A stretch of 64,000 bases of DNA from Burkholderiales bacterium (GCA_022843925.1 JALHMS010000008.1:62001-126000); one strand, 5' to 3'; counted from the first letter of the stretch, positions 214 through 14,151 are shown. Made by a program: numbers and translations. Notes: generated by a model not told the origin, from the letters alone.

Positions 214-1209
214 CTACTTCTGGCCGAAGCCGAGTCCGGCGATCGGACCTTCCTCACGCAAAGTGGCGAGCAGCGCCTGGACGGCATTCTGGCGTGCTGC
301 CTTGTAGTCGTAACGGGACGTGCCCGAGACCTCGTGGTCGCGGCTGGCAAGCGATTGGCCGCGATCGTCACGGATGTTCACGTTCACGTTGAGCTTGACC
401 ACCTTGCTGCCGTAGATCTCGTCCTCGCGGTTGACGGCCGTCACCACGAGTACGTTTCCAGCGCTGCCGGCGGTGCTCACGGCCCGCATGCCGTTCTCGT
501 TCACGAACGTGCCGATCGCAGCGGCGACGTCGGCGTCCTGTGGTTTGGCCTGCAACTGGAACACGAGTCCGGCAGAGGACTCGTCGACCTTCTGCTGCAC
601 GGCCTGGTAGCGCTTCAGCTTCGCAAGGCCCGCTCCACCGTTCTCGGCGCCCACGAGGAGTTGTGCCTGCGCGCTGGCGCTGTCGATCGTGGGCAGCAAT
701 CGGCGCAGACCGATGAAGCGCTCGAGCGGAGAAGCCTTCTCTAGCGACGCGACAGTCTGCTCGATGGTGGCGTCCAGCGGATCCAGCTTCGCCCGGATGT
801 CGCCCATGAATGCCTGGCGGTCCACCTTCACCAGCACGAAGTAGCCTTTGCCACCCTGGGCGGTCTGTTCGATGGAGAAGTTGCGGAACTCGGTCTTCTG
901 CACTTCCTCCGACAAGCGGCTGCGCGCCTGCCGGTCCACCTTCCCGTTGGTGTCGGTGACCTGGCTGTCGATGCGGCCGGAGATGCTGACGCGCAACTTC
1001 GTCGCCACATCCTTCAGCGCTGCGCGGCGGGCAGTCTCGCGGTCGATGCCCTCTCCGACGCCGTACCAGGCAGTGGCGGAATCGGGCGGTGGGTTGAGGA
1101 CCCAATCCGGCGCAGGACCGGCGTCCCGCGTGGAGCCCATGGAGAGGCAGCCACCCAGGAGTCCGAGGACGCCGATTGCAAAGCCAAGTGCTGCCAGTGC
1201 TCGAGTCAT
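214..1209 (-). CDS. LPP20-family outer-membrane lipoprotein (331 aa)
   Basis: Predicted lipoprotein. The ATG at 1209 has a GGGAGG ribosome site about 9 bases upstream and begins a short signal peptide with lipobox LGGC (Cys21). Longer in-frame starts lack a signal sequence, so this start is preferred. Residues about 35-150 have the LPP20 layout: a PDWVLNPP opening, a YGVGEG strand, a long helix with ETARRAALKDVATKL, then a GYFVLVKVDRQAF strand. The C-terminal half (about 200-331) is a second alpha/beta region that I do not recognise. LPP20 proteins are surface or envelope lipoproteins of poorly defined role; some, such as FlgP, belong to flagellar outer rings, but no flagellar gene is near. 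It diverges from two further LPP20-like genes, which suggests one envelope locus. Family is fairly sure, function is not. Confidence 0.82.
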   Translation of the reverse strand: MTRALAALGFAIGVLGLLGGCLSMGSTRDAGPAPDWVLNPPPDSATAWYGVGEGIDRETARRAALKDVATKLRVSISGRIDSQVTDTNGKVDRQARSRLSEEVQKTEFRNFSIEQTAQGGKGYFVLVKVDRQAFMGDIRAKLDPLDATIEQTVASLEKASPLERFIGLRRLLPTIDSASAQAQLLVGAENGGAGLAKLKRYQAVQQKVDESSAGLVFQLQAKPQDADVAAAIGTFVNENGMRAVSTAGSAGNVLVVTAVNREDEIYGSKVVKLNVNVNIRDDRGQSLASRDHEVSGTSRYDYKAARQNAVQALLATLREEGPIAGLGFGQK

Positions 1210-1603
1210 GCTGACGTGGCCTCCCGACCACTGCCGCGTTCGCGGCGGAAGATGAGTGCAGTGCCGGGGACCCTCGCCCGTCTCGAAGACGGCTGACGCG
1301 CCGACGTGCCGCAGCCCGTTCGTCCCCGCGCGAGGGTAGCAAGCCGCGCCGTGCGCCACAATCTGCGTCGCGCGTGATTTTCTGGCGACCGACATTGTGC
1401 GAGTCTCGCCGAGACTGGTTGCCTCACCTTTGCCGTTCTGCTAAAAAAGCCCGTGACATCGAGCATGAAGATTGCAGGACGCGAGATCGATGCGACCTTT
1501 CTTCCCTTGGCCTGCAGCATCGACTGCAAGGTTGCTGCAACCGAGCGGTGCGGCCGTAAGACGACGATTTGCAGACATCACTGACACTCCAGGAGATTCG
1601 CCC
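1210..1603. promoter_or_regulatory. Divergent intergenic region with palindromes
   Basis: This 394-base gap separates two divergent lipoprotein genes and must contain both their promoters, but I find no convincing -35/-10 pair. It holds a perfect 7+1+7 palindrome at 1402-1416 (AGTCTCG-C-CGAGACT) and a 6+1+6 palindrome at 1530-1542 (GGTTGC-T-GCAACC), each a plausible operator or hairpin. The AGGAG at 1591-1595 serves the rightward gene. Confidence 0.4.
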
Positions 1604-2218
1604 ATGCGTCCCATCCGTATCCAAAGCTTTCTGATCGCGTCCGCAGCTGCTGCTGTTCTGGCTGGCTGTTCATCGACCCCGAAGAAGGACACCGTGGCGC
1701 TGCCGCCCTTGGAGTGCGTGTATCCCGACTCACCGAAGGACGCCGCGCCGCTCTGGATCTGCGACGCGCCCGTGGAAGGCGTGGCTGTGTCGGCGGTCGG
1801 CGTGCACGAGAAGTCTGCCGCCGGTGCAGCCTTCATGAAGGATCAAGCCGCCGCCGATGCCCGCGTGAAGCTCGCGCAGCAGATGAAGGTGCACGTCAAC
1901 AACATGATCAAGCAGTACGTCGAGACCACCGGTGCGGGTTCTGCCGAAACGGTCGACAAGGTCAACACGAGCGTCTCGAAGCTGATCACCTCCGAGACCA
2001 TCACCGGGTCCCGCATCTACCGCAGCCAGACGAGCCCGAAGGGCGGCATCTACGTGCTCGTCGGTCTCGACCCGACCGTCACGAAGGAAGCCACCGAGAA
2101 GATCCTGAAGACGAGCATGAACAACGAGCGTGCGTTGTGGCAGCAGTTCAAGGCCGCCAAGGGGCAGGACGAAATGGCCGCCGAGATCGCCAAGATGGCC
2201 GCGGAAGGCCGTCAGTAA
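1604..2218 (+). CDS. LPP20-like lipoprotein (204 aa)
   Basis: Predicted outer-membrane lipoprotein. The ATG at 1604 follows AGGAG by 8 bases and opens a signal peptide with lipobox LAGC and an SSTPKK tether. The mature part has the LPP20 pattern: PLWICDAP, an SAVGV strand, a helix rich in Ala, Asp and Lys (AAADARVKLAQQMK), then GGIYVLVGLDP, and a helical tail ending MAAEGRQ. It is a diverged paralogue of its divergent neighbour rather than a copy. A related C-terminal segment is found as a decayed fragment at 2821-2928. It probably forms an operon with the next four ORFs. The molecular role is unknown. Confidence 0.82.
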   Translation: MRPIRIQSFLIASAAAAVLAGCSSTPKKDTVALPPLECVYPDSPKDAAPLWICDAPVEGVAVSAVGVHEKSAAGAAFMKDQAAADARVKLAQQMKVHVNNMIKQYVETTGAGSAETVDKVNTSVSKLITSETITGSRIYRSQTSPKGGIYVLVGLDPTVTKEATEKILKTSMNNERALWQQFKAAKGQDEMAAEIAKMAAEGRQ

Positions 2219-5340: not shown

Positions 5341-6393
5341 TCACCAGTCGCTGCTGAACGCCCGGATGATGACGCCGCCTGATTTCTCGTCGTGTTCCAG
5401 CGTCAGCAGCTTTCGTGCTTCCGCCTCGTCGAGCAGGCGCGAGAACGAACTGAAGCCGTAGTAGTTCTCGTTGAAGCCCGGGCGCCGGCGCTTCAACGCC
5501 TGCTTCACCATCGAACCCCAGATCTTGTCTTCCGCACCGCGTTCCGTCGCCATGGCCTCGATGGTCTCCATCACCAGTTCGATGGCTTCCACCTTCTTCT
5601 GCTCCTCGGTCTTCACGAACGCCTCGGCGCCGTTGCCCGGTCCGGCCTCGACGGCGTCCGACGTCTCCGCTGACGTTGTCGCCTCGGCGGGAGCCTCCAG
5701 GCGCTCGGCGGCCGCGTCCTGCTTCGCCGTCGTAGCCTTCGTGGTGCGACGCCCCCGCGCGGCCGGTTTGCGCTTCGGCTTCTCGGCCGCGACGTCCTCC
5801 TGGGCCACGTCGGCGACGGGATCGGGCGGCACCGGTGCCGCCGCGGTAACCGCTTCGGCGATCTCCCGCGCCGGCGTCCTGGATGCCGGCTTCGGCCGCG
5901 GTGTCGCCGCGCGCTTCGGCTTCTCCCGGACCAGGTCGTCGTAGTAGATGAATTCGTCGCAGTTGGCGATCAGAAGGTCCGACGTCGACTTCTTGACGCC
6001 GACGCCGATCACCGTCTTGTTGTTCTCGCGCAGCTTCGATACGAGCGGCGAGAAATCGGAGTCGCCGGTGATGAGCACGAACGTGTCGACATGGGACTTC
6101 GTGTAGCAGAGGTCCAGCGCGTCGACGACCATGCGGATGTCCGCGGAGTTCTTGCCGGACTGGCGCACGTGGGGGATCTCGATCAGTTCGAAGGATGCCT
6201 CGTGCATGGGCGCCTTGAAGCCCTTGTAGCGCTCCCAGTCGCAGTACGCCTTCTTCACGACGATGCTGCCCTTCAGCAGCAGCCGCTCCAGCACCTTCTT
6301 GATGTCGAACTTCTCGTACTTGGCGTCACGGACGCCGAGCGCGACGTTCTCGAAGTCGCAGAACAGCGCCATGCTTTGGATTTCGTTGGCCAA
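5341..6393 (-). CDS. NYN-domain RNase-like protein with C-terminal OST-HTH (LOTUS) domain
   Basis: Probable RNA-processing or RNA-binding protein. The N-terminal 150 residues are a NYN (LabA/DUF88, PIN-like) domain with the acidic residues in CDFENV, NSADIRMVVDAL and LITGDSDF, expected to bind metal for nuclease activity. A low-complexity Ala/Lys/Pro linker (about 155-265) leads to an OST-HTH/LOTUS domain (about 270-345, with IWGSMVKQALKRRRPGFNE), which in related proteins binds RNA. I chose the TTG at 6393 because AGGAGA lies about 6 bases upstream, whereas the internal ATG at 6372 has no ribosome site. It is last in a leftward group, 148 bases after the acyltransferase gene. Confidence 0.88.
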   Translation of the reverse strand: MANEIQSMALFCDFENVALGVRDAKYEKFDIKKVLERLLLKGSIVVKKAYCDWERYKGFKAPMHEASFELIEIPHVRQSGKNSADIRMVVDALDLCYTKSHVDTFVLITGDSDFSPLVSKLRENNKTVIGVGVKKSTSDLLIANCDEFIYYDDLVREKPKRAATPRPKPASRTPAREIAEAVTAAAPVPPDPVADVAQEDVAAEKPKRKPAARGRRTTKATTAKQDAAAERLEAPAEATTSAETSDAVEAGPGNGAEAFVKTEEQKKVEAIELVMETIEAMATERGAEDKIWGSMVKQALKRRRPGFNENYYGFSSFSRLLDEAEARKLLTLEHDEKSGGVIIRAFSSDW

Positions 6394-6541
6394 CGACGTC
6401 TCCTGGGGAGGTGCTGAGGATGGGGCTGCGCCTGGGGATCGGGGAGCGGGCATGGCGCACGTTCCCGGGGCCATGCCGGATGGAAGCCGGCGCGCATGGG
6501 ATGGTCGAGTATAGCCCTCGACCCGCGTCAGCCTCCCGGGA

Positions 6542-7333
6542 TCAGCGTTCCATGGTCCGCGGAGAGATGGAGTCGGCTGCAGAAGCAGGGCGGTGGGCGG
6601 CTCCGTCGGCGGTCGAAGGCGAGCGTCCGTGGCCGGGCCAAGGTCGATGCGAAGCGCCATCCAGCAGAGGTGGCGCCGCAACCGGGCCATCCACCGATCG
6701 ACGCAATCGCGCCACCTCGGCGCCCAACGCCGCGGGGAGGCGATCGACATCGATCCGCATCAGCACGGCGCCGGCGTTCACGTCGCCGTGGGCGACCCGG
6801 GTCTGACGGGCGAGCGAGGTGGCAGCAAGCATGCGGCGATACACGGTTTCGTGCTTCGGGTTGAACGTGCAAAGCATGGTCTCGAAGCGGTAGGCCTCGG
6901 ACGCCACGACGAGGGTCCACTTCACGAGATCGAGGATCAGCGCGTATCCGAGACGATTCTGCACCGTCGGTGCCGTCGCGATGCGGAACGACGATACGAG
7001 ACGTCGTCGATCGCGCCGGACTGCGTTCGTCTCCGTCGGAAAGTAGAGGTCGGTGTGGAGACCGAGCGGGCCGTCCGCCGTGAGCGAGTTGGTGCCGATG
7101 ATCGTGCCATCACGCACGGCGACGAGGACGGTGGTGAACGGGGATGCGTCCAGCGCCGGGTACGAGTCCAGGCGTCCGTCCGGCGTTGCGGACATGTATC
7201 CGGCCGCGACGATCGAGTCGTGCGTGAGGCGGTGAACGGCGTCCAGTTCGGCGCGCCCCTGCGCGGGACGGACGACGTAGGGACGACCCTCCGGGCGAAA
7301 CTCGATGCAACGGACGGGCTCGGGCTTGCTCAT
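6542..7333 (-). CDS. FeeM-like N-acyl amino acid synthase (GNAT fold)
   Basis: Predicted cytoplasmic acyltransferase of the FeeM/N-acyl amino acid synthase type, which transfers an acyl chain from acyl carrier protein to an amino acid amine. Diagnostic stretches are VRPAQGRAELDAVHRLTHDS, GYMSATPDGRLDSYP, TTVLVAVRDGTIIGTNSLT and FNPKHETVYRRML. The first about 215 residues carry the fold; the last about 45 are a low-complexity tail. The ATG at 7333 has GAGGTGA upstream. It begins 6 bases after the end of the E1-like/nitroreductase gene, so the two are almost certainly one transcript. FeeM relatives in proteobacteria are often tied to exosortase or lipid-signal clusters, but no exosortase or acyl carrier protein gene is in this window. 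Substrate unknown. Confidence 0.78.
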   Translation of the reverse strand: MSKPEPVRCIEFRPEGRPYVVRPAQGRAELDAVHRLTHDSIVAAGYMSATPDGRLDSYPALDASPFTTVLVAVRDGTIIGTNSLTADGPLGLHTDLYFPTETNAVRRDRRRLVSSFRIATAPTVQNRLGYALILDLVKWTLVVASEAYRFETMLCTFNPKHETVYRRMLAATSLARQTRVAHGDVNAGAVLMRIDVDRLPAALGAEVARLRRSVDGPVAAPPLLDGASHRPWPGHGRSPSTADGAAHRPASAADSISPRTMER

Positions 7334-7339
7334 GGGCAG

Positions 7340-9652
7340 TCACCTCGAGAACGTGAGCACGTCATCGACCGGGCGGCGAAGAGCGCGGACGGAGGGGGCG
7401 TCCACACGGGCGAGCCGGAAGAGCAGGACATCCGCGTGACCTTCCGGTACGCCGGTCAGGGAGCGATACGCCGGTCGCAGGTCCAGAAGCCGTTTCGTCT
7501 CGGCAGTCGAAAGCCCCGCGCCACCGGCCTCCGCCCGCATGAACAGATAGGGCAGGGCGGCGAGCGGCTGGAAGGCGATGTCCAGAGCGGTTGCAGTGAG
7601 CCAGACGCGCTGGAGGGCGCGACCACCCTCGAAGAATGCCGCCGCGTCGTCGCCCGGGAAGGAAAGCGATCCGAAGGCCGACGAGCCCTTTGCGGCGCGA
7701 CGACCGAACGCCTCGAGATTGCCGCCCCCTCCGACATGACCGAGCAGTTCCATCACCCGCCAGCGGGCGGTGAGGCGCAGCGCAGCGAGATCCGTCGCGT
7801 CGAGTTCGAGCGTGCGCAGGTCGATCCCGTCTCGGGTGTGCAGGGCTTCGTCGGCGGACCAGCGCAATTCCGACATCAGTTCCGCGTGCAGGGTCCGGGA
7901 GAGAAACCGGATCCGGTCTCCGGCGCCCAGGATCTTCCCGAGCGCGTCCATGTCGGCATCCGCGTCGATGAGCCGCAGTGAGGCGCCTCGGGCATCGGCC
8001 GCTGCATCGAGGGCCGACGTCGCCGCCGGTGCCAGTGGATCGCGCCGGCCGAGCCGTCGATTCGTGCATCGTCGCAGGATCTGTTCGGCGAGGGGGTCTG
8101 GAGAGCGTGCGGGGGTGTCCCGGTCGAGATCGATGGCGCAGACGACGGACGCGTCCTCGCCGTCTGGAAACCTTCGCACCGATGCCACCAGTCCGATGGC
8201 CGTGGCGGCGAGGACGATGTTCTCGGCCATGGCGCCGAACGCGACCCAGGTGGCGCGGTGCGCATGGTCGAGCATCGAACCGCTTCGCTTCGGGTCCCGG
8301 CGACAGTGCAACGTCGTCCCGTCCCAGTCGAACAGCCATGGTTGCGCGTTCCCGCCGGAGGGCGCCGAGATTCCGTGTTCGACGAGAGACCGGACGAGAT
8401 CGCGCTGCGGGTCCGGTCGGTGTCGCCCGCGCGTCGCCGAGGTTCGGACGGGCGCGGGAGCGTCGGTCGGCGGCTCCACCGCCGCTGTCGGGTCGCAGAC
8501 GATGCGATCGAGATCGACGTAGTAGCGGCCCGATCCTCGGAACTCGTCCAAGGCGATGCGCCGCACCGTGTCGGTCACGACGGCCGCGCCGAGCGACACC
8601 GCGGAGGCGAGCTGCGGCCATGACCGGAGCGTCGTTCCGATCTCGACCGCCGATGCCGCCAGGCGCGGCGACACCGTGTCGATCCCCACGATGGCCATCG
8701 CGGTCTGCAGCTTCCGCGCAGGGGTCGCGTCCCGCAGGTCCGCGCCCGAGGTGTGCGCCGCCAGACCGTGGAAGATCGCCCGATCCGGCTCGAGGTCGAA
8801 ACGCTCGACATCGAGCATGCCGCGATCGCTGGTTTCCATCACGACCGGGATGCCGGCCTGCCTCGCCGCCTCCCGGACGAGCAGTTTCATCGGTATGTCG
8901 TCGCACTCCTCGACGATGACATCGGGCGGCGGCGCGGACAGGAATGTCGCGATGTTGCCGTCGCGCAGTCCGAGTGCCTCGACGCGGATGCGCAGGTACG
9001 GATCGATCTCCAGCATGGCCCGGGCGGTGAGCACCGCCTTGTTGATGCCGATGTCCGTCACGCTTGCCCGCAGGCGGTTCAGGTTCGACAAGGACAGGAC
9101 ATCGAAGTCCGCCAGCGCGAAGCTCCGGCCGATCCCTTCCATCGCGAGCGTCACCGCGGTGGCCTGTCCCACCGACAGGCCGACGATCGCGATGTGCAGT
9201 GCGCGAAGCCGGGCCTGTTCCGCGGCGGTGATCTTGTTTCGATTTCGCGCGAGCCTGAGTTCCGTGAACTCGTCCTCGGGGAGCAGATGGACGAGCTGGC
9301 GCCGCCAGGGATAGTGGACCCAGTTGCCGTAGCGTTCCGGCGGCACGCCGGCGAGGTGGGCTTGCACCGCCCGTTCGATTCCTGCGCCGTCCAGCGTCGG
9401 GGCCCGTGTCTCCATAAGTTCCGCGAGCTGTGCCATCAGGGTGTCGGTGCAGACGGACAGGCCATGACCCGCTTCCAGCAGCGCGGCCGTCATGGCCTCG
9501 GCCTCCGGTGTGCCGGCCGGGATGATCGAGACGCCCCAGCCGTGGGGATCGTCGTCCGCGAGTCGCGCGTCTCCCCGGGTCGAGGAGGGCAGGGTCTCCG
9601 GCGAAGCGCCCCGGGCATGGCGTTGAGGTGCAAGATCGTGAACTGACTGCAT
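7340..9652 (-). CDS. Rv1355c-type fusion: E1-like ThiF domain plus nitroreductase-like domain (770 aa)
   Basis: Two-domain enzyme. Residues about 130-390 are an E1/ThiF-like adenylation domain with a nucleotide loop GLSVGQA (158-164), the ADFDVLSLSNLNR motif (181-193) and VEECDD (248-252); the paired zinc CxxC motifs of ThiF/MoeB are absent. Residues about 415-765 are a nitroreductase-like flavin domain opening with GISAPSGGNAQPW. ThiF-nitroreductase fusions are known as the Rv1355c family, whose reaction is not established; ThiF enzymes adenylate C-termini or carboxylates. The tight coupling to a FeeM-like acyltransferase suggests a pathway that activates, oxidises or acylates an amino acid or small peptide; this is inference. 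The start ATG at 9652 has only a weak GGAAG upstream, and it diverges from rnpB. Confidence 0.82.
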   Translation of the reverse strand: MQSVHDLAPQRHARGASPETLPSSTRGDARLADDDPHGWGVSIIPAGTPEAEAMTAALLEAGHGLSVCTDTLMAQLAELMETRAPTLDGAGIERAVQAHLAGVPPERYGNWVHYPWRRQLVHLLPEDEFTELRLARNRNKITAAEQARLRALHIAIVGLSVGQATAVTLAMEGIGRSFALADFDVLSLSNLNRLRASVTDIGINKAVLTARAMLEIDPYLRIRVEALGLRDGNIATFLSAPPPDVIVEECDDIPMKLLVREAARQAGIPVVMETSDRGMLDVERFDLEPDRAIFHGLAAHTSGADLRDATPARKLQTAMAIVGIDTVSPRLAASAVEIGTTLRSWPQLASAVSLGAAVVTDTVRRIALDEFRGSGRYYVDLDRIVCDPTAAVEPPTDAPAPVRTSATRGRHRPDPQRDLVRSLVEHGISAPSGGNAQPWLFDWDGTTLHCRRDPKRSGSMLDHAHRATWVAFGAMAENIVLAATAIGLVASVRRFPDGEDASVVCAIDLDRDTPARSPDPLAEQILRRCTNRRLGRRDPLAPAATSALDAAADARGASLRLIDADADMDALGKILGAGDRIRFLSRTLHAELMSELRWSADEALHTRDGIDLRTLELDATDLAALRLTARWRVMELLGHVGGGGNLEAFGRRAAKGSSAFGSLSFPGDDAAAFFEGGRALQRVWLTATALDIAFQPLAALPYLFMRAEAGGAGLSTAETKRLLDLRPAYRSLTGVPEGHADVLLFRLARVDAPSVRALRRPVDDVLTFSR

Positions 9653-9786
9653 GAGCCGCTGCTTCCCATGTCGGTTGGTCCCCCGGGCGGGGCATGGGAA
9701 AAATGTAGGGGGGGTGCGGCTACGGATCGCTTACCGCTGCCGGATGGTCGCGGTCGTATCTGCTGGCTCACCCGAGCGGTCGCGCC

Positions 9787-9792
9787 CATAAT
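9787..9792 (+). promoter_or_regulatory. rnpB promoter -10 element
   Basis: CATAAT matches five of six bases of the sigma-70 -10 consensus and ends 8 bases before the predicted 5' end of RNase P RNA at 9801. The matching -35 region near 9764 (TGGCTC) is poor. Confidence 0.55.
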
Positions 9793-9800
9793 CCGCCCCG

Positions 9801-10269
9801 GCGAAGCAGGCCGGGCAGTCGCTGCGGGTTCGTCCCGCAGAGGAAAGTCCGGGCACCACAGGGCAGGATGCCGGCTAACGGCCGGGCGTCGCGAGGCGAC
9901 GGATCAGTGCAACAGAAAGTACACCGCCATCGACTGCTGACCGTTGCGACCCGCGCAAGCGGGTGGCTTCAGGTCACCTCGCGGAGGGCAGTTCTCCGAG
10001 CGGTCGGCGGCAAGGTTGAAAAAGTGCCGTGCGTCGATGGACGTGCGGACGGCGCGATGAGGCGCGTCGTCGGTAAGAGCGCACTACCCCGGCGGTGACG
10101 TCCGGGGTCGGCAAACCCCATCCGGTGCAAGACCAAATAGGGGGGCGATGGCGTGGCCCGCGCCGCTCCCGGGTAGGTTGCTAGAGGCCGCAGGCAACTG
10201 CGGTCCCAGAGGAATGACTGTCGCGGGGCGCAAGCGCCGAACAGAACCCGGCTTACAGGCCTGCTTCGC
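9801..10269 (+). ncRNA. rnpB: RNase P RNA (class A)
   Basis: Catalytic RNA of ribonuclease P, which removes 5' leaders from tRNA precursors. The ends pair perfectly as helix P1 (9801-9812 with 10258-10269). The universally conserved 5' segment AGGAAAGTCCGGGC begins at 9841, and the 3' partner AGAACCCGGCTTACAGGCC precedes the P1 3' strand. The core GGTAAGAGCGCAC and GCAAGACCAAATAG segments are also present. Total length of about 470 bases is larger than the E. coli RNA (377) but within reach of GC-rich forms with extended helices. It lies directly upstream of the dcw cluster, an arrangement seen in other betaproteobacteria. No T-rich terminator follows. Confidence 0.95.
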
Positions 10270-10628
10270 CAACTTCCTTCTCCACCTGCGACCTGTTCCC
10301 ACTGCGGATACCCGTGCGTCCGTGGCGTGAACTGCCCTGGGCGCCGATCGGAGTGCTCCGCGAATCCCGCTGCCGGCGCCGCGAGCATCCGCCAGGTGGG
10401 AATCCGCGCCGTGATCTGCCCGTGGCCAGGTCTTCCGGTGGGGGCGCGCCGCGATTTTTTCGCCAGGAGTGCCACTCGGCGCTCCATGCGGACCTGCCCC
10501 GAACTTGAGATTTCACCTTAAGTTCAGGGCGTGAATCCTTCAATCGATTGAATTCCCCTAGCTGTCCTGTGCGTGAAGACTCACGCATAAGTCTTTGTCA
10601 CGCCTAGAAATTCCCCTTTACCCGTCCC
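10270..10628. other. Intergenic region between rnpB and the dcw promoter
   Basis: No gene is supported here. The second half is clearly more AT-rich than the surroundings. It contains a perfect 14-base palindrome TTCAATCGATTGAA at 10539-10552 and a 7-bp hairpin TGCGTGA/TCACGCA at 10570-10587, either of which could be a regulator site or RNA structure. Short ORFs across it have no ribosome sites. Confidence 0.5.
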
Positions 10629-10657
10629 TTGACCCTGCCAATTCTTTCCAATAGAGT
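10629..10657 (+). promoter_or_regulatory. Sigma-70 promoter of the dcw cluster (Pmra)
   Basis: TTGACC at 10629-10634 and TAGAGT at 10652-10657 are separated by exactly 17 bases. The position, just upstream of mraZ and overlapping the first MraZ box, matches the mra promoter of other proteobacteria. Confidence 0.72.
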
Positions 10658-10681
10658 GGGAAAAAGTTGGCGAAAGTGGGT
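10656..10681 (+). promoter_or_regulatory. MraZ operator: three TGGG-type boxes at 10-base spacing
   Basis: GTGGG at 10656-10660, TTGG at 10667-10670 and GTGGG at 10676-10680 repeat with a 10-base period and A-rich spacers (AAAAA, CGAAA). MraZ is known to bind tandem TGGG(N) repeats separated by 5 bases in its own promoter, so this is the likely autoregulatory site. It starts at the -10 element, consistent with repression. Confidence 0.75.
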
Positions 10682-10719
10682 TTTTCTGTTTATTTCTGTG
10701 TCGGCGGGGTTATATCACG

Positions 10720-11196
10720 GTGTTCCAGGGCGCGGCACAACTCAGTCTCGATGCGAAGGGTCGGCTCGCCGTCCCCACGCGGCATCGCGACGGCCTGCAG
10801 CGCGGCTTCGGACCTGGTGATGGTCAGGAACAACAAGGCTCAAACGGTAAGTTGGTACTAACCGCGCATCCGCATCGTTGCCTGCTCTTGTATCCCGCCC
10901 CGGCCTGGGGGCCGATTCGCGACCGGATCATGGGGTTCTCGAGCTTCGACCCCCAGACCAGCCTGTGGAAGCGGCTCCTCGTGGGTTTTGCCGAGGAAGT
11001 GGATCTCGACAACAGCGGGCGGGTGCTGGTCTCGCCCGAGCTGCGGAAATTCGCTGGCATCGACAAGCAGGTGATGATGGTCGGTCAGGGTTCGCACTTC
11101 GAGGTCTGGAGCGTCGAGGCCTGGGAAGCGCAGCTCGCGCAGTTGGACCGGGGTGACGGCAAGCCGCCGCCCGGTTTGGAGAATTTCGCCCTGTGA
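10720..11196 (+). CDS. mraZ: Transcriptional regulator MraZ
   Basis: DNA-binding regulator of the dcw operon, made of two SpoVT/AbrB-like halves that assemble into a ring. First half: [17 protein letters not shown]; second half: [20 protein letters not shown] with [13 protein letters not shown]. The GTG at 10720 fits the family start (normally MFRG, here VFQG); there is no strong ribosome site, only GGGG 13 bases upstream. Compared with E. coli MraZ, the loop between TRHRD and CLLLYP is about 10 residues longer (contains [10 protein letters not shown]), an unusual insertion. Its operator lies at 10656-10681, and it overlaps rsmH by 4 bases. Confidence 0.93.
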
Positions 11197-12146
11197 CCGA
11201 AGCGGCCCCGGCCGCCGGTGGCGGCGGGGCACGACCGCATCTGCCCGTGATGGGGGTGGAGGCGGTGGAAGCCCTGGCGGTACGACCGGACGGCGTCTAC
11301 GTGGACGGCACCTTCGGGCGCGGCGGGCACAGTCGGCTGATCCTGGATCGGCTCGGGCCGTCCGGCCGGCTGATCGCGATCGACCGTGATCCCGAAGCCG
11401 TGGCGGTCGCGGCGACGTGGAGCGATCCGCGATTCCGCTGCGTGCACGAGCGGCTCAGCCGGATCGGCATGGTGCTGGACGAATTGCAGGTGGCAGTCGC
11501 TGACGGGGTGTTGCTGGACGTGGGTGTGTCTTCACCCCAACTGGACGATGCGGCGCGGGGTTTCAGCTTCCGGCGCGACGGACCGCTCGACATGCGGATG
11601 GATCCGTCGAGCGGGGAGCCGGCGTCCGAATGGCTCGCGCGGGCATCGGAGAAGGACATTGCGGAGGTCATCTGGCGCTATGGCGAAGAACGGTTTGCTC
11701 AACAGATTGCAAGAGCGGTTGTTGCGGCTCGGTCCGGAGACGCTCTCCGGACGACACGGCAACTTGCCGCGCTCGTGGCAGCCGCTGTCCGTACGCGCGA
11801 GCCAGGCCAGGACCCGGCGACGCGCACCTTTCAAGCTCTACGGATTCACGTCAATCAGGAGCTTGAAGAGCTGGAAGTAGGGTTGGCCGCCGCGTGCGCG
11901 CGGCTTGGGGCAGGGGGGCGCCTGGTGGTGATCGCATTTCATTCGCTGGAGGACCGGATCGTGAAGCGCTTCATGCGTGATCGCGCCTCGTCGCCGTCCT
12001 TCCCTGCGCGCCTCCCGATCCGCGCCGCGGAGATCCCCGCCCCCGGGATGCGGCTGATCGGCAAGGCCGTCCGGGCCACGCCCGCCGAGATCGCCGCCAA
12101 CCCGCGCGCCCGCAGCGCGATCATGCGAGTGCTGGAGAAGCGATGA
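11193..12146 (+). CDS. rsmH: 16S rRNA m4C1402 methyltransferase
   Basis: S-adenosylmethionine-dependent N4-methyltransferase for C1402 of 16S rRNA (formerly MraW). Recognised from [13 protein letters not shown], the SAM loop [51 protein letters not shown] and [13 protein letters not shown]. The GTG at 11193 overlaps the mraZ stop (GTGA), indicating translational coupling. At 317 residues the length is normal. Like elsewhere it is the second gene of the dcw cluster, although its product acts on the ribosome. Confidence 0.96.
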
Positions 12147-12424
12147 TCCGCCTCGACCTCGTCCTGCTCGCCGTCGTGGTGCTCTGCGCACTCGGCACCG
12201 TCGCCGCCCAGCATCGCGCCCGCAGCCTCTTCGTGGAACTGCAGAAGGAGCAGGCCAGCGCCCGCATGCTCGACGAGGAATGGGGTCAGCTGCAGCTCGA
12301 ACAGAGCACCTGGGCGATGCACTCCCGCATCGAGAGCGTCGCGACTTCCCGGTTGCGCATGCGCGTGCCGCCGACGGAGCGCATCCAGATGATCCCGGCT
12401 TCGCCGCCGGTGGGGGCGCCGTGA
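12143..12424 (+). CDS. ftsL: Cell division protein FtsL
   Basis: Small bitopic membrane protein of the divisome; it forms the FtsQLB subcomplex that activates FtsWI. The 93 residues have an N-terminal membrane segment ([19 protein letters not shown]) followed by a periplasmic coiled coil ([20 protein letters not shown]) and end in a basic/Pro tail. The ATG at 12143 overlaps the rsmH stop, and its own TGA overlaps the ftsI GTG. Sequence conservation of FtsL is low, so the name rests on topology, size and position between rsmH and ftsI. Confidence 0.92.
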
Positions 12425-14151
12425 ATCCCGCCCACCATCCGCTCCTGTCGCTCCGGCTGCCGGTCTGGCGCACGCGCTTCGTCCTCACCCTGCTGATCGC
12501 GAGCTTCGCCGGTCTTGCCGTGCGTGCGCTCTGGCTGCAGGGCATGCAGCGCGACTTCCTCCAGGCGAAGGGTGAGTCGCGCTACGGCCGCACGCTGGAA
12601 ATGTCGGCCCACCGCGGCATGATCACCGACCGCCACGGCGAACCCCTCGCCGTGTCGACCCCGGTGGAATCCGTGTGGGCCAGCCCGTCATCCACCGAGA
12701 TCCCCGCGGACAAGCGCGCCGCGCTGGCCAAGGCGCTCGGTCTCACGCTCGCCGAACTGGACCAGAAACTCGGCGCCCGAGACCGCGACTTCGTGTGGCT
12801 GAAGCGCCAGCTCACGCCCGAGAAGGCGCGGGACGTGATGCGTCTTGCCGTGCCCGGGGTGTTCGTCGACAAGGAATACCGCCGCTATTACCCGGCGGGG
12901 GACGTTGCCTCGCATCTCATCGGGTTCACCGATCTGGACGACCGCGGGCGCGAAGGCATCGAACTCGCCTTCCAGGAGCATCTCGCCGGCAAGACGGGCA
13001 GCCGCCGTGTGATCCGCGACCGGAAGGGGCGCGTCATCGAGGACGTCGAGGGCGTGCGCGCCCCGCGGCAGGGGCGCGACATCGCGCTCTCGATCGACCT
13101 GAAGCTGCAGTATCTCGCCTATCGCGAGCTGAAGAACGCCGTGGCGATGCATCGCGCGCGCGCCGGCAGCATCGTGGTGCTCGACGTGCGGACGGGCGAG
13201 GTGCTGGCGCTCGCGAACGTGCCCACGTACAACCCGAACAACCGCGCGCAGTACGACACCGAGCACGCGCGCAACCGGGCGCTCGTCGATCTCTTCGAAC
13301 CCGGTTCCACGCTGAAGCCCTTCACGGTCGCTGCGGCCCTGCAGGACGGGCTCGTGCGGCCCGACTCCGTCATCCAGACCGCCGGCGGCGCGCTCACCAT
13401 CGGATCCCGCACGATCCACGACGCGCACGCGGCCGGCAATCTCACCGTATCGCAGATCATCCAGAAGTCCTCCAATGTCGGCACGGCGCGCATGGCGCTT
13501 TCGATGGAGCCCAAGCGCATGTGGGAGGCGCTCTCCGCGGCCGGCTTCGGCACCGTCCCCCAGCTCGGATTTCCCGGCGAGGCCGGTGGCCGTCTGCGCG
13601 ACCATCGCACCTGGAAGCCCATCGAGCAGGCCACCATGAGCTACGGCCACGGCATCTCGGTGAGTCTCATGCAGCTTGCCCGTGCGTACACGGTGTTCTG
13701 CACCGATGGCGAGCTTCTGCCGCTCACGCTCGTGCGCCGCACCGAGCCGGTGGTCGGCGTGCCGGTCCTCGCGCCGGAGACCGCGCGCCAGCTCCGCGAG
13801 ATGCTGCAGCTCGTCACGCAGACCGGCGGGACGGCGCCGCGTGCCCAGGTCGTCGGCTACAGCGTCGGCGGCAAGACCGGCACCGCACACAAGCTCGTGA
13901 ACGGGCGCTATGCGCCGGACCGCTACGCGTCGTCGTTCATCGGTTTCGCTCCGGTGTCCGCCCCGCGTCTCATCGTCGCAGTGATGATCGACGAGCCGAG
14001 CGCAGGGCACCACTACGGCGGCACCGTGGCGGCGCCGGTGGTGTCGTCCGTGCTGTCCGGTGCGCTGCGGGTGCTCGCCGTGCCGCCCGACCTCCCGATC
14101 CCGCGCGTGCCGATGCCCGAAATGGTCGACGTGCCCGCGGAGGAGGTATGA
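12421..14151 (+). CDS. ftsI: Penicillin-binding protein 3, septal transpeptidase FtsI
   Basis: Class B penicillin-binding protein that cross-links septal peptidoglycan with FtsW. One N-terminal membrane segment (RTRFVLTLLIASFAGLAVRAL), a pedestal domain (MITDRHGEPLAVSTPVES), then the transpeptidase domain with catalytic Ser296 in GSTLKP, S350-S-N352 and K485-T-G. The GTG at 12421 overlaps the ftsL stop; the frame is open much further upstream but that part lies inside ftsL. 576 residues is normal. Ends overlapping murE by 4 bases. Confidence 0.96.
   Translation: MNPAHHPLLSLRLPVWRTRFVLTLLIASFAGLAVRALWLQGMQRDFLQAKGESRYGRTLEMSAHRGMITDRHGEPLAVSTPVESVWASPSSTEIPADKRAALAKALGLTLAELDQKLGARDRDFVWLKRQLTPEKARDVMRLAVPGVFVDKEYRRYYPAGDVASHLIGFTDLDDRGREGIELAFQEHLAGKTGSRRVIRDRKGRVIEDVEGVRAPRQGRDIALSIDLKLQYLAYRELKNAVAMHRARAGSIVVLDVRTGEVLALANVPTYNPNNRAQYDTEHARNRALVDLFEPGSTLKPFTVAAALQDGLVRPDSVIQTAGGALTIGSRTIHDAHAAGNLTVSQIIQKSSNVGTARMALSMEPKRMWEALSAAGFGTVPQLGFPGEAGGRLRDHRTWKPIEQATMSYGHGISVSLMQLARAYTVFCTDGELLPLTLVRRTEPVVGVPVLAPETARQLREMLQLVTQTGGTAPRAQVVGYSVGGKTGTAHKLVNGRYAPDRYASSFIGFAPVSAPRLIVAVMIDEPSAGHHYGGTVAAPVVSSVLSGALRVLAVPPDLPIPRVPMPEMVDVPAEEV

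Follow-up and report, generated by a model that had tools for sequence, protein, structure and literature searches.

Characterised relatives of the locus described here are Rv1356c and Rv1355c, which have been identified as TrzA and TrzS and make N-acyl tryptazolones (PMC12856293, December 2025). TrzA attaches the acyl group to L-tryptophan, for which the TrzAS pathway is specific, with short acyl-CoA. In TrzS the ThiF domain then carries out an ATP-dependent cyclisation of N-acyl-tryptophan to the saturated oxazolone, and the FMN domain an O2-dependent desaturation, which follows cyclisation (PMC12856293). Asp217 in the ATP site of Msmeg TrzS, and Arg540 and Gln651 in its flavin domain, were tested by mutation (PMC12856293). 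TyzACB, an acyl tyrosine oxazolone system of Mycobacterium tuberculosis, was described earlier (PMC10404671), as was OxzAB of Pseudoalteromonas rubra (de Rond 2021, as cited in PMC10404671). The physiological role of the TrzS family is, according to its authors, the main open question (PMC12856293).

The window, by which we mean the whole stretch of 64,000 nucleotides from a Burkholderiales bacterium that was analysed, contains a pair of genes, P0001 and P0002, arranged as follows:

7340..9652, minus strand: P0001, a ThiF-nitroreductase fusion of 770 aa, assigned to the TrzS/Rv1355c type (ThiF-like cyclase plus flavin-dependent oxidase of the nitroreductase superfamily)
8759..9250, minus strand: ThiF-like adenylation/cyclase domain of P0001 (aa 135-298; PF00899), with D182, R193, K205 and D251
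7355..8416, minus strand: flavin-dependent oxidase (FDO) domain of P0001 (aa 413-766; PF00881), with R582 and Q695
6542..7333, minus strand: P0002, a predicted FeeM-type N-acyl amino acid synthase of the GNAT/AHL-synthase superfamily, 263 aa (PF21926)
7334..7346, minus strand: P0001/P0002 junction, a 6-base gap with a GAGG ribosome-binding motif at the TGA stop of the upstream gene
6525..9778, no strand assigned: 3.25-kb segment holding P0001 and P0002 only, replaced by ~90 bp in the sister genome G006

A preliminary description of this DNA had placed the two genes 6 bases apart, which is exact, both being on the minus strand. From P0001 to P0002 the junction reads ...CTCGAGG-TGA-CTGCCC-ATG, so that GAGG abuts or overlaps the P0001 stop. 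No third gene (acyl carrier protein, ubiquitin-like or peptide partner) was found in the 3.25-kb cassette. The RNase P RNA gene (rnpB; 9803-10271, plus strand) adjoins the cassette on one side, with mraZ, mraW and ftsI beyond it, and the other flank is occupied by a gene with an NYN domain and a LOTUS-type domain, the latter below cutoff. This NYN endonuclease-like gene (window 5341-6400, minus strand; weak OST-HTH/LOTUS match) is kept in sister genomes without the cassette. The upstream overlapping part of the ORF 5341-6750 was dropped, as the NYN domain begins only at aa 127, and so was the frame 7362-9695, which overlaps the same stretch as 7340-9652 and has no support. Elsewhere in the window, two neighbouring ORFs on opposite strands, 214-1395 (minus) and 1472-2218 (plus), both match the LPP20 lipoprotein family.

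Profile searches matched P0001 to ThiF (PF00899, E=5.8e-20, aa 135-298) and to Nitroreductase (PF00881, E=9e-10), and no CxxC pair (the zinc motif) was found in its sequence, just as the preliminary description had it. The best family for P0001 was NCBIfam NF005901 (the Rv1355c family), which it matched at full length (aa 43-768, E=5.6e-226) with 752 bits against a curated cutoff of 476; it falls outside the OxzB/TyzB-type ThiF/FDO family. In an alignment of 27 homologues, D182, D184, N190, N192, R193, K205 and D251 of P0001 are invariant. D182, R193, K205 and D251 align to D62, R73, K86 and D130 of MoeB, residues with a role in ATP binding. The residues of Msmeg TrzS were matched to P0001 through the alignment and through residue spacing in two mycobacterial homologues (L166 and L169), in which the Asp of ECD is followed after 323 residues by the second Arg of DRIRFL, and that Arg after 111 residues by the Gln of VQP. 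Since these spacings equal 540-217 and 651-540, the counterparts of TrzS D217, R540 and Q651 are D251, R582 and Q695 of P0001, and all three are kept. Overall, P0001 is 34-36% identical to the aligned mycobacterial and rhodococcal homologues.

An AlphaFold2 model of P0001 had a mean pLDDT of 85; its N-terminus and the linker between the domains are disordered, as has also been reported for TrzS (PMC12856293). The best PDB fold match of the model was 2YMV, the Acg nitroreductase homologue (E=2.8e-14), and its second-best was AclA (9EGB), on which nothing useful was found in the literature. Further E1-like matches were ThiF, MoeB, MccB and TcdA, and PaaA was also among the PDB matches. Judged from conserved residues and fold, the ThiF domain would retain its ATP site within an E1-type structure. 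The preliminary description had held that a ThiF domain without an ATP pocket would speak against it; because the ATP-site residues are kept and the model has an E1-type fold, the comparison with MoeB and ThiF points the other way.

P0002 had been said to resemble N-acyl amino acid synthases, and it matches FeeM (PF21926) over the whole domain with E=5.9e-26, while its alignment profile matches the solved FeeM structure 2G0B with E=6.8e-22. For both P0001 and P0002 the family scores lie far beyond what chance would give. In other groups the partner of the synthase is of the TrzA type: a member of the ~255-aa TrzA family lies directly upstream in 14 of the 20 Mycobacteriales loci, and in Bacteroidota and Nannocystis a ~230-260-aa TrzA homologue lies downstream. 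These two TrzA sets are related to each other (hhalign probability 97.9%), and the FeeM profile has no sequence link to either of the two TrzA profiles (0.9% and 2.3%). The TrzA model shows an acyl-homoserine-lactone-synthase fold, its top PDB matches including MesI, BjaI, RpaI, FeeM and LasI. With a shared AHL-synthase-like fold and unlinked sequence profiles, the FeeM and TrzA types are therefore two families by sequence within a single fold superfamily, and they occupy the same slot.

Full-length NF005901-type synthases are rare in Burkholderiales: they occur in 3 of 399 genomes, each time with an adjacent FeeM-type gene. The adjacency on which the preliminary description leaned is thus conserved, with a FeeM-type partner in every Burkholderiales carrier and the TrzA type elsewhere. 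FeeM-type partners were seen in the window, in Ga0077526 (L037) and in G027; Paenibacillus filicis (L038) has one as well, though its match is weaker. In both other Burkholderiales carriers the FeeM-type gene lies no more than about 30 bases downstream of the synthase; in G027, which belongs to another family of the same order, the start codon of the partner (PF21926, E=4.5e-12) comes ~26 bases after the synthase stop. The G027 partner was found by the Pfam model and missed by our custom FeeM profile. A restriction of the FeeM pairing to a single genus was considered and rejected, as G027 and P. filicis share it.

In five actinomycete MAGs (L096, L097, L098, L099 and L105) a TrzA type is joined, in the same reading frame, to the N-terminal end of the ThiF-FDO fusion, which would place a complete predicted oxazolone pathway on a single chain. 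This fusion gives independent support to the view that acylation belongs to this pathway. Through the same fusions an iterated whole-protein profile absorbed TrzS, and the TrzA survey was scored by domain segment.

Other arrangements were also seen among the relatives. A third type of partner gene, with no Pfam match, lies beside the synthase in a gammaproteobacterial MAG (L045:8160-8879) and a planctomycete MAG (L102:8292-9092). In Nannocystis (L041-L044, L048 and L103) two different synthase copies in tandem flank one TrzA-type gene. On Streptomyces linear plasmids (L119:7830-9628 and L120:7122-10036) a related ThiF gene overlaps a gene for either a GNAT protein or a ketoacyl-ACP synthase III. 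ThiF-only versions, which lack the flavin domain, occur in Bacteroidota (L108, L109, L112, L113, L115 and L116) and Brevibacillus (L111 and L114), and may make the saturated oxazolone as their product; those of Bacteroidota adjoin a TrzA-type acyltransferase, followed in four cases by a 7TM kinase.

How the window pair compares with the described systems can now be stated. Like TrzAS, it combines an NF005901 ThiF-FDO fusion, with counterparts of D217, R540 and Q651, and an adjacent N-acyltransferase of the AHL-synthase fold. It differs in that its acyltransferase is of the FeeM type and lies downstream of the synthase, whereas TrzA lies upstream, in having no c-di-GMP gene beside the pair, and in the position of P0001 on a separate branch of the tree. 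In that maximum-likelihood tree P0001 groups with Ga0077526 (100/99) and then with a Myxococcales MAG (97/97), and the actinobacterial TrzS clade (23 rows, 99/100) leaves it outside. OxzAB is likewise a two-gene system of the Pseudomonadota with an N-acyltransferase and a ThiF-FDO fusion; however, OxzB belongs to another ThiF/FDO subcluster (PMC12856293), and the short ThiF-FDO fusion that a related genome carries (L128), taken here to be of the OxzB kind, is extremely distant from P0001 in the tree. TyzACB has an acyltransferase of FeeM-like fold, a ThiF and an FDO, and its product is an acyl tyrosine oxazolone, but these are three separate genes, and the genome of the window has its own Tyz-like set on C6. 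This second set (C6:40.5-46.5 kb; L121 = G000:C6:34001-53000, 6529-12536) comprises two FeeM-type genes, a TyzB-like ThiF, a PEP-CTERM protein and a separate divergent flavin oxidase. FeeM itself (2G0B, PF21926), an N-acyl tyrosine synthase, is matched by P0002 as a family over the whole domain, but has its own acyl carrier protein, a gene that the cassette lacks.

In the sister genome G006 (flanks 88-92% identical by blastn) only about 90 bp separate the counterparts of window positions 6524 and 9779, and the pair is absent; it is likewise missing at the cassette site in the related genomes G001, G002 and G003. The G+C content of the cassette is in line with that of its flanks, and mobile-element ends or flanking repeats were looked for around the cassette and not found. 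Judged from these genome comparisons, P0001 and P0002 appear to behave as a self-contained cassette of 3.25 kb and to be gained or lost as one. Because the cassette is rare, its gain is the simpler reading; its loss in the sister genomes, instead of gain, is possible.

We consider it probable, at about 0.83, that P0001 and P0002 together make an N-acyl oxazolone (azlactone), as a two-gene biosynthetic unit comparable to TrzAS and OxzAB. P0002 would take a fatty acyl group from either acyl-ACP or acyl-CoA and use it to acylate the amino group of an L-amino acid, which is most likely aromatic. The ThiF domain of P0001 would adenylate the free carboxylate of the N-acyl amino acid with ATP, the amide oxygen would attack the adenylated carboxylate to give a saturated 5(4H)-oxazolone, and the FMN-dependent nitroreductase-type domain would desaturate the alpha-beta bond with O2, yielding an acyl tyrazolone, phenazolone or tryptazolone. 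We infer the three reactions and their order from the characterised relatives; what the present analysis itself shows is that the proteins belong to these families, that their catalytic residues and fold are kept, and that the coupling is conserved and the genes are gained or lost jointly. The partner and the clade differ from those of TrzAS, and at 34-36% identity substrate specificity is not transferable, so tryptophan is not to be assumed. Tyrosine, the substrate of FeeM, would be at least as likely a substrate of P0002 as tryptophan.

The preliminary description had proposed an undescribed acylated amino acid or peptide product, made by linked adenylation, redox and acylation steps, and had regarded the reaction of Rv1355c-type proteins as not known. 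The latter statement is out of date, as the TrzS reaction has been published (PMC12856293). The linked steps and an acylated amino-acid product stand; nothing points to a peptide, and with the TrzS reaction known the product class is not undescribed. The pathway type is thus already known, the pair looks like a functional member of it, and what is new is a FeeM-type, non-orthologous acyltransferase beside a TrzS-type synthase.

An unlikely alternative is that the pair finally yields an open-chain N-acyl dehydroamino acid, comparable to the thalassotalic and kyonggic acids, and that the oxazolone is a transient which hydrolyses. Clusters for N-acyl dehydrotyrosines (thalassotalic and kyonggic acids, stieleriacines) likewise bring together an N-acyl amino acid synthase, a ThiF and a nitroreductase, and their reported product is open chain, with no oxazolone seen (PMC12479983); oxazolones are moreover easily hydrolysed in acid (PMC12856293). 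In those clusters the ThiF and the nitroreductase are separate genes (PMC12479983). In the fused enzyme, however, cyclisation comes before desaturation (PMC12856293), and the oxazolones of TrzS, TyzCB and OxzB are stable enough if extraction avoids acid.

We think it very improbable that what the ThiF domain activates is instead a ribosomal peptide or carrier protein, as with MccB, PaaA or MoeB, so that the pair would serve peptide modification or sulfur transfer. MccB, PaaA and MoeB are all among the PDB fold matches of P0001, but its closest family is of the TrzS type, which acts on a small N-acyl amino acid. Canonical MoeB/ThiF sulfur-carrier activators differ in having a CxxC zinc site and a ubiquitin-like partner, both absent from the window pair, and a ubiquitin-like or peptide partner is rejected because the 3.25-kb segment is without any third gene. 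Least probable of all is that P0002 is a chance neighbour with a separate role, P0001 drawing its N-acyl amino acids from the second genomic cluster, where two more FeeM-type genes lie beside a TyzB-like ThiF and an FDO. The 6-base gap with its ribosome-binding motif at the upstream stop argues against this, as do the downstream FeeM-type gene kept by both other Burkholderiales carriers, one of them from another family, and the joint presence or absence of P0001 and P0002.

If P0001 and P0002 are an oxazolone unit of the TrzAS/OxzAB kind, the neighbours of the synthase in relatives bear on what such a product may do. No signalling gene was seen adjoining the cassette in the window. Among 57 plus-strand TrzA genes of the Bacteroidota type (a few of them from Nannocystis), 53 are directly followed by a kinase with a 7TMR-DISM/DISMED2 sensor half, typically at a spacing of -9 to +8 bases, with a response-regulator kinase next:

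L059:5851-12124, L046:5893-12075 and about 50 similar Bacteroidota loci: synthase, TrzA-type gene, 7TMR-DISM/DISMED2 histidine kinase and response-regulator kinase

These counts are not independent, since 46 of the 53 kinase-linked loci come from Dyadobacter and Algoriphagus; seven are from other Bacteroidota, and in four of these the kinase stands beside a ThiF-only version without the oxidase domain. In Mycobacteriales a GGDEF/EAL gene lies directly 3' of the synthase in 12 of 20 loci (L161, L163-L165, L167, L172-L175 and L177-L179), which extends the c-di-GMP link noted for M. tuberculosis (PMC12856293). The main texts of PMC12856293 and PMC10404671 make no mention of a histidine kinase, and literature searches gave no link between Rv1355c-type enzymes and either 7TM kinases or quorum sensing by azlactones. 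The position of the synthase next to signalling genes in relatives hints at a possible role in signalling, and the Bacteroidota operon resembles a signal synthase accompanied by a receptor of its own. A broader reading, to which we would give somewhat less than even odds, is that Rv1355c-type enzymes are signal synthases and N-acyl oxazolones a widespread, undescribed class of signals with a dedicated receptor, the window cassette being a mobile variant with a swapped acyltransferase.

For the family, the window pair means that the synthase can pair with another type of acyltransferase, and the compact Burkholderiales cassette provides a clean presence/absence pair. The recurring signalling neighbours, of which the membrane receptor kinase of Bacteroidota is the most striking, give a testable lead on function.
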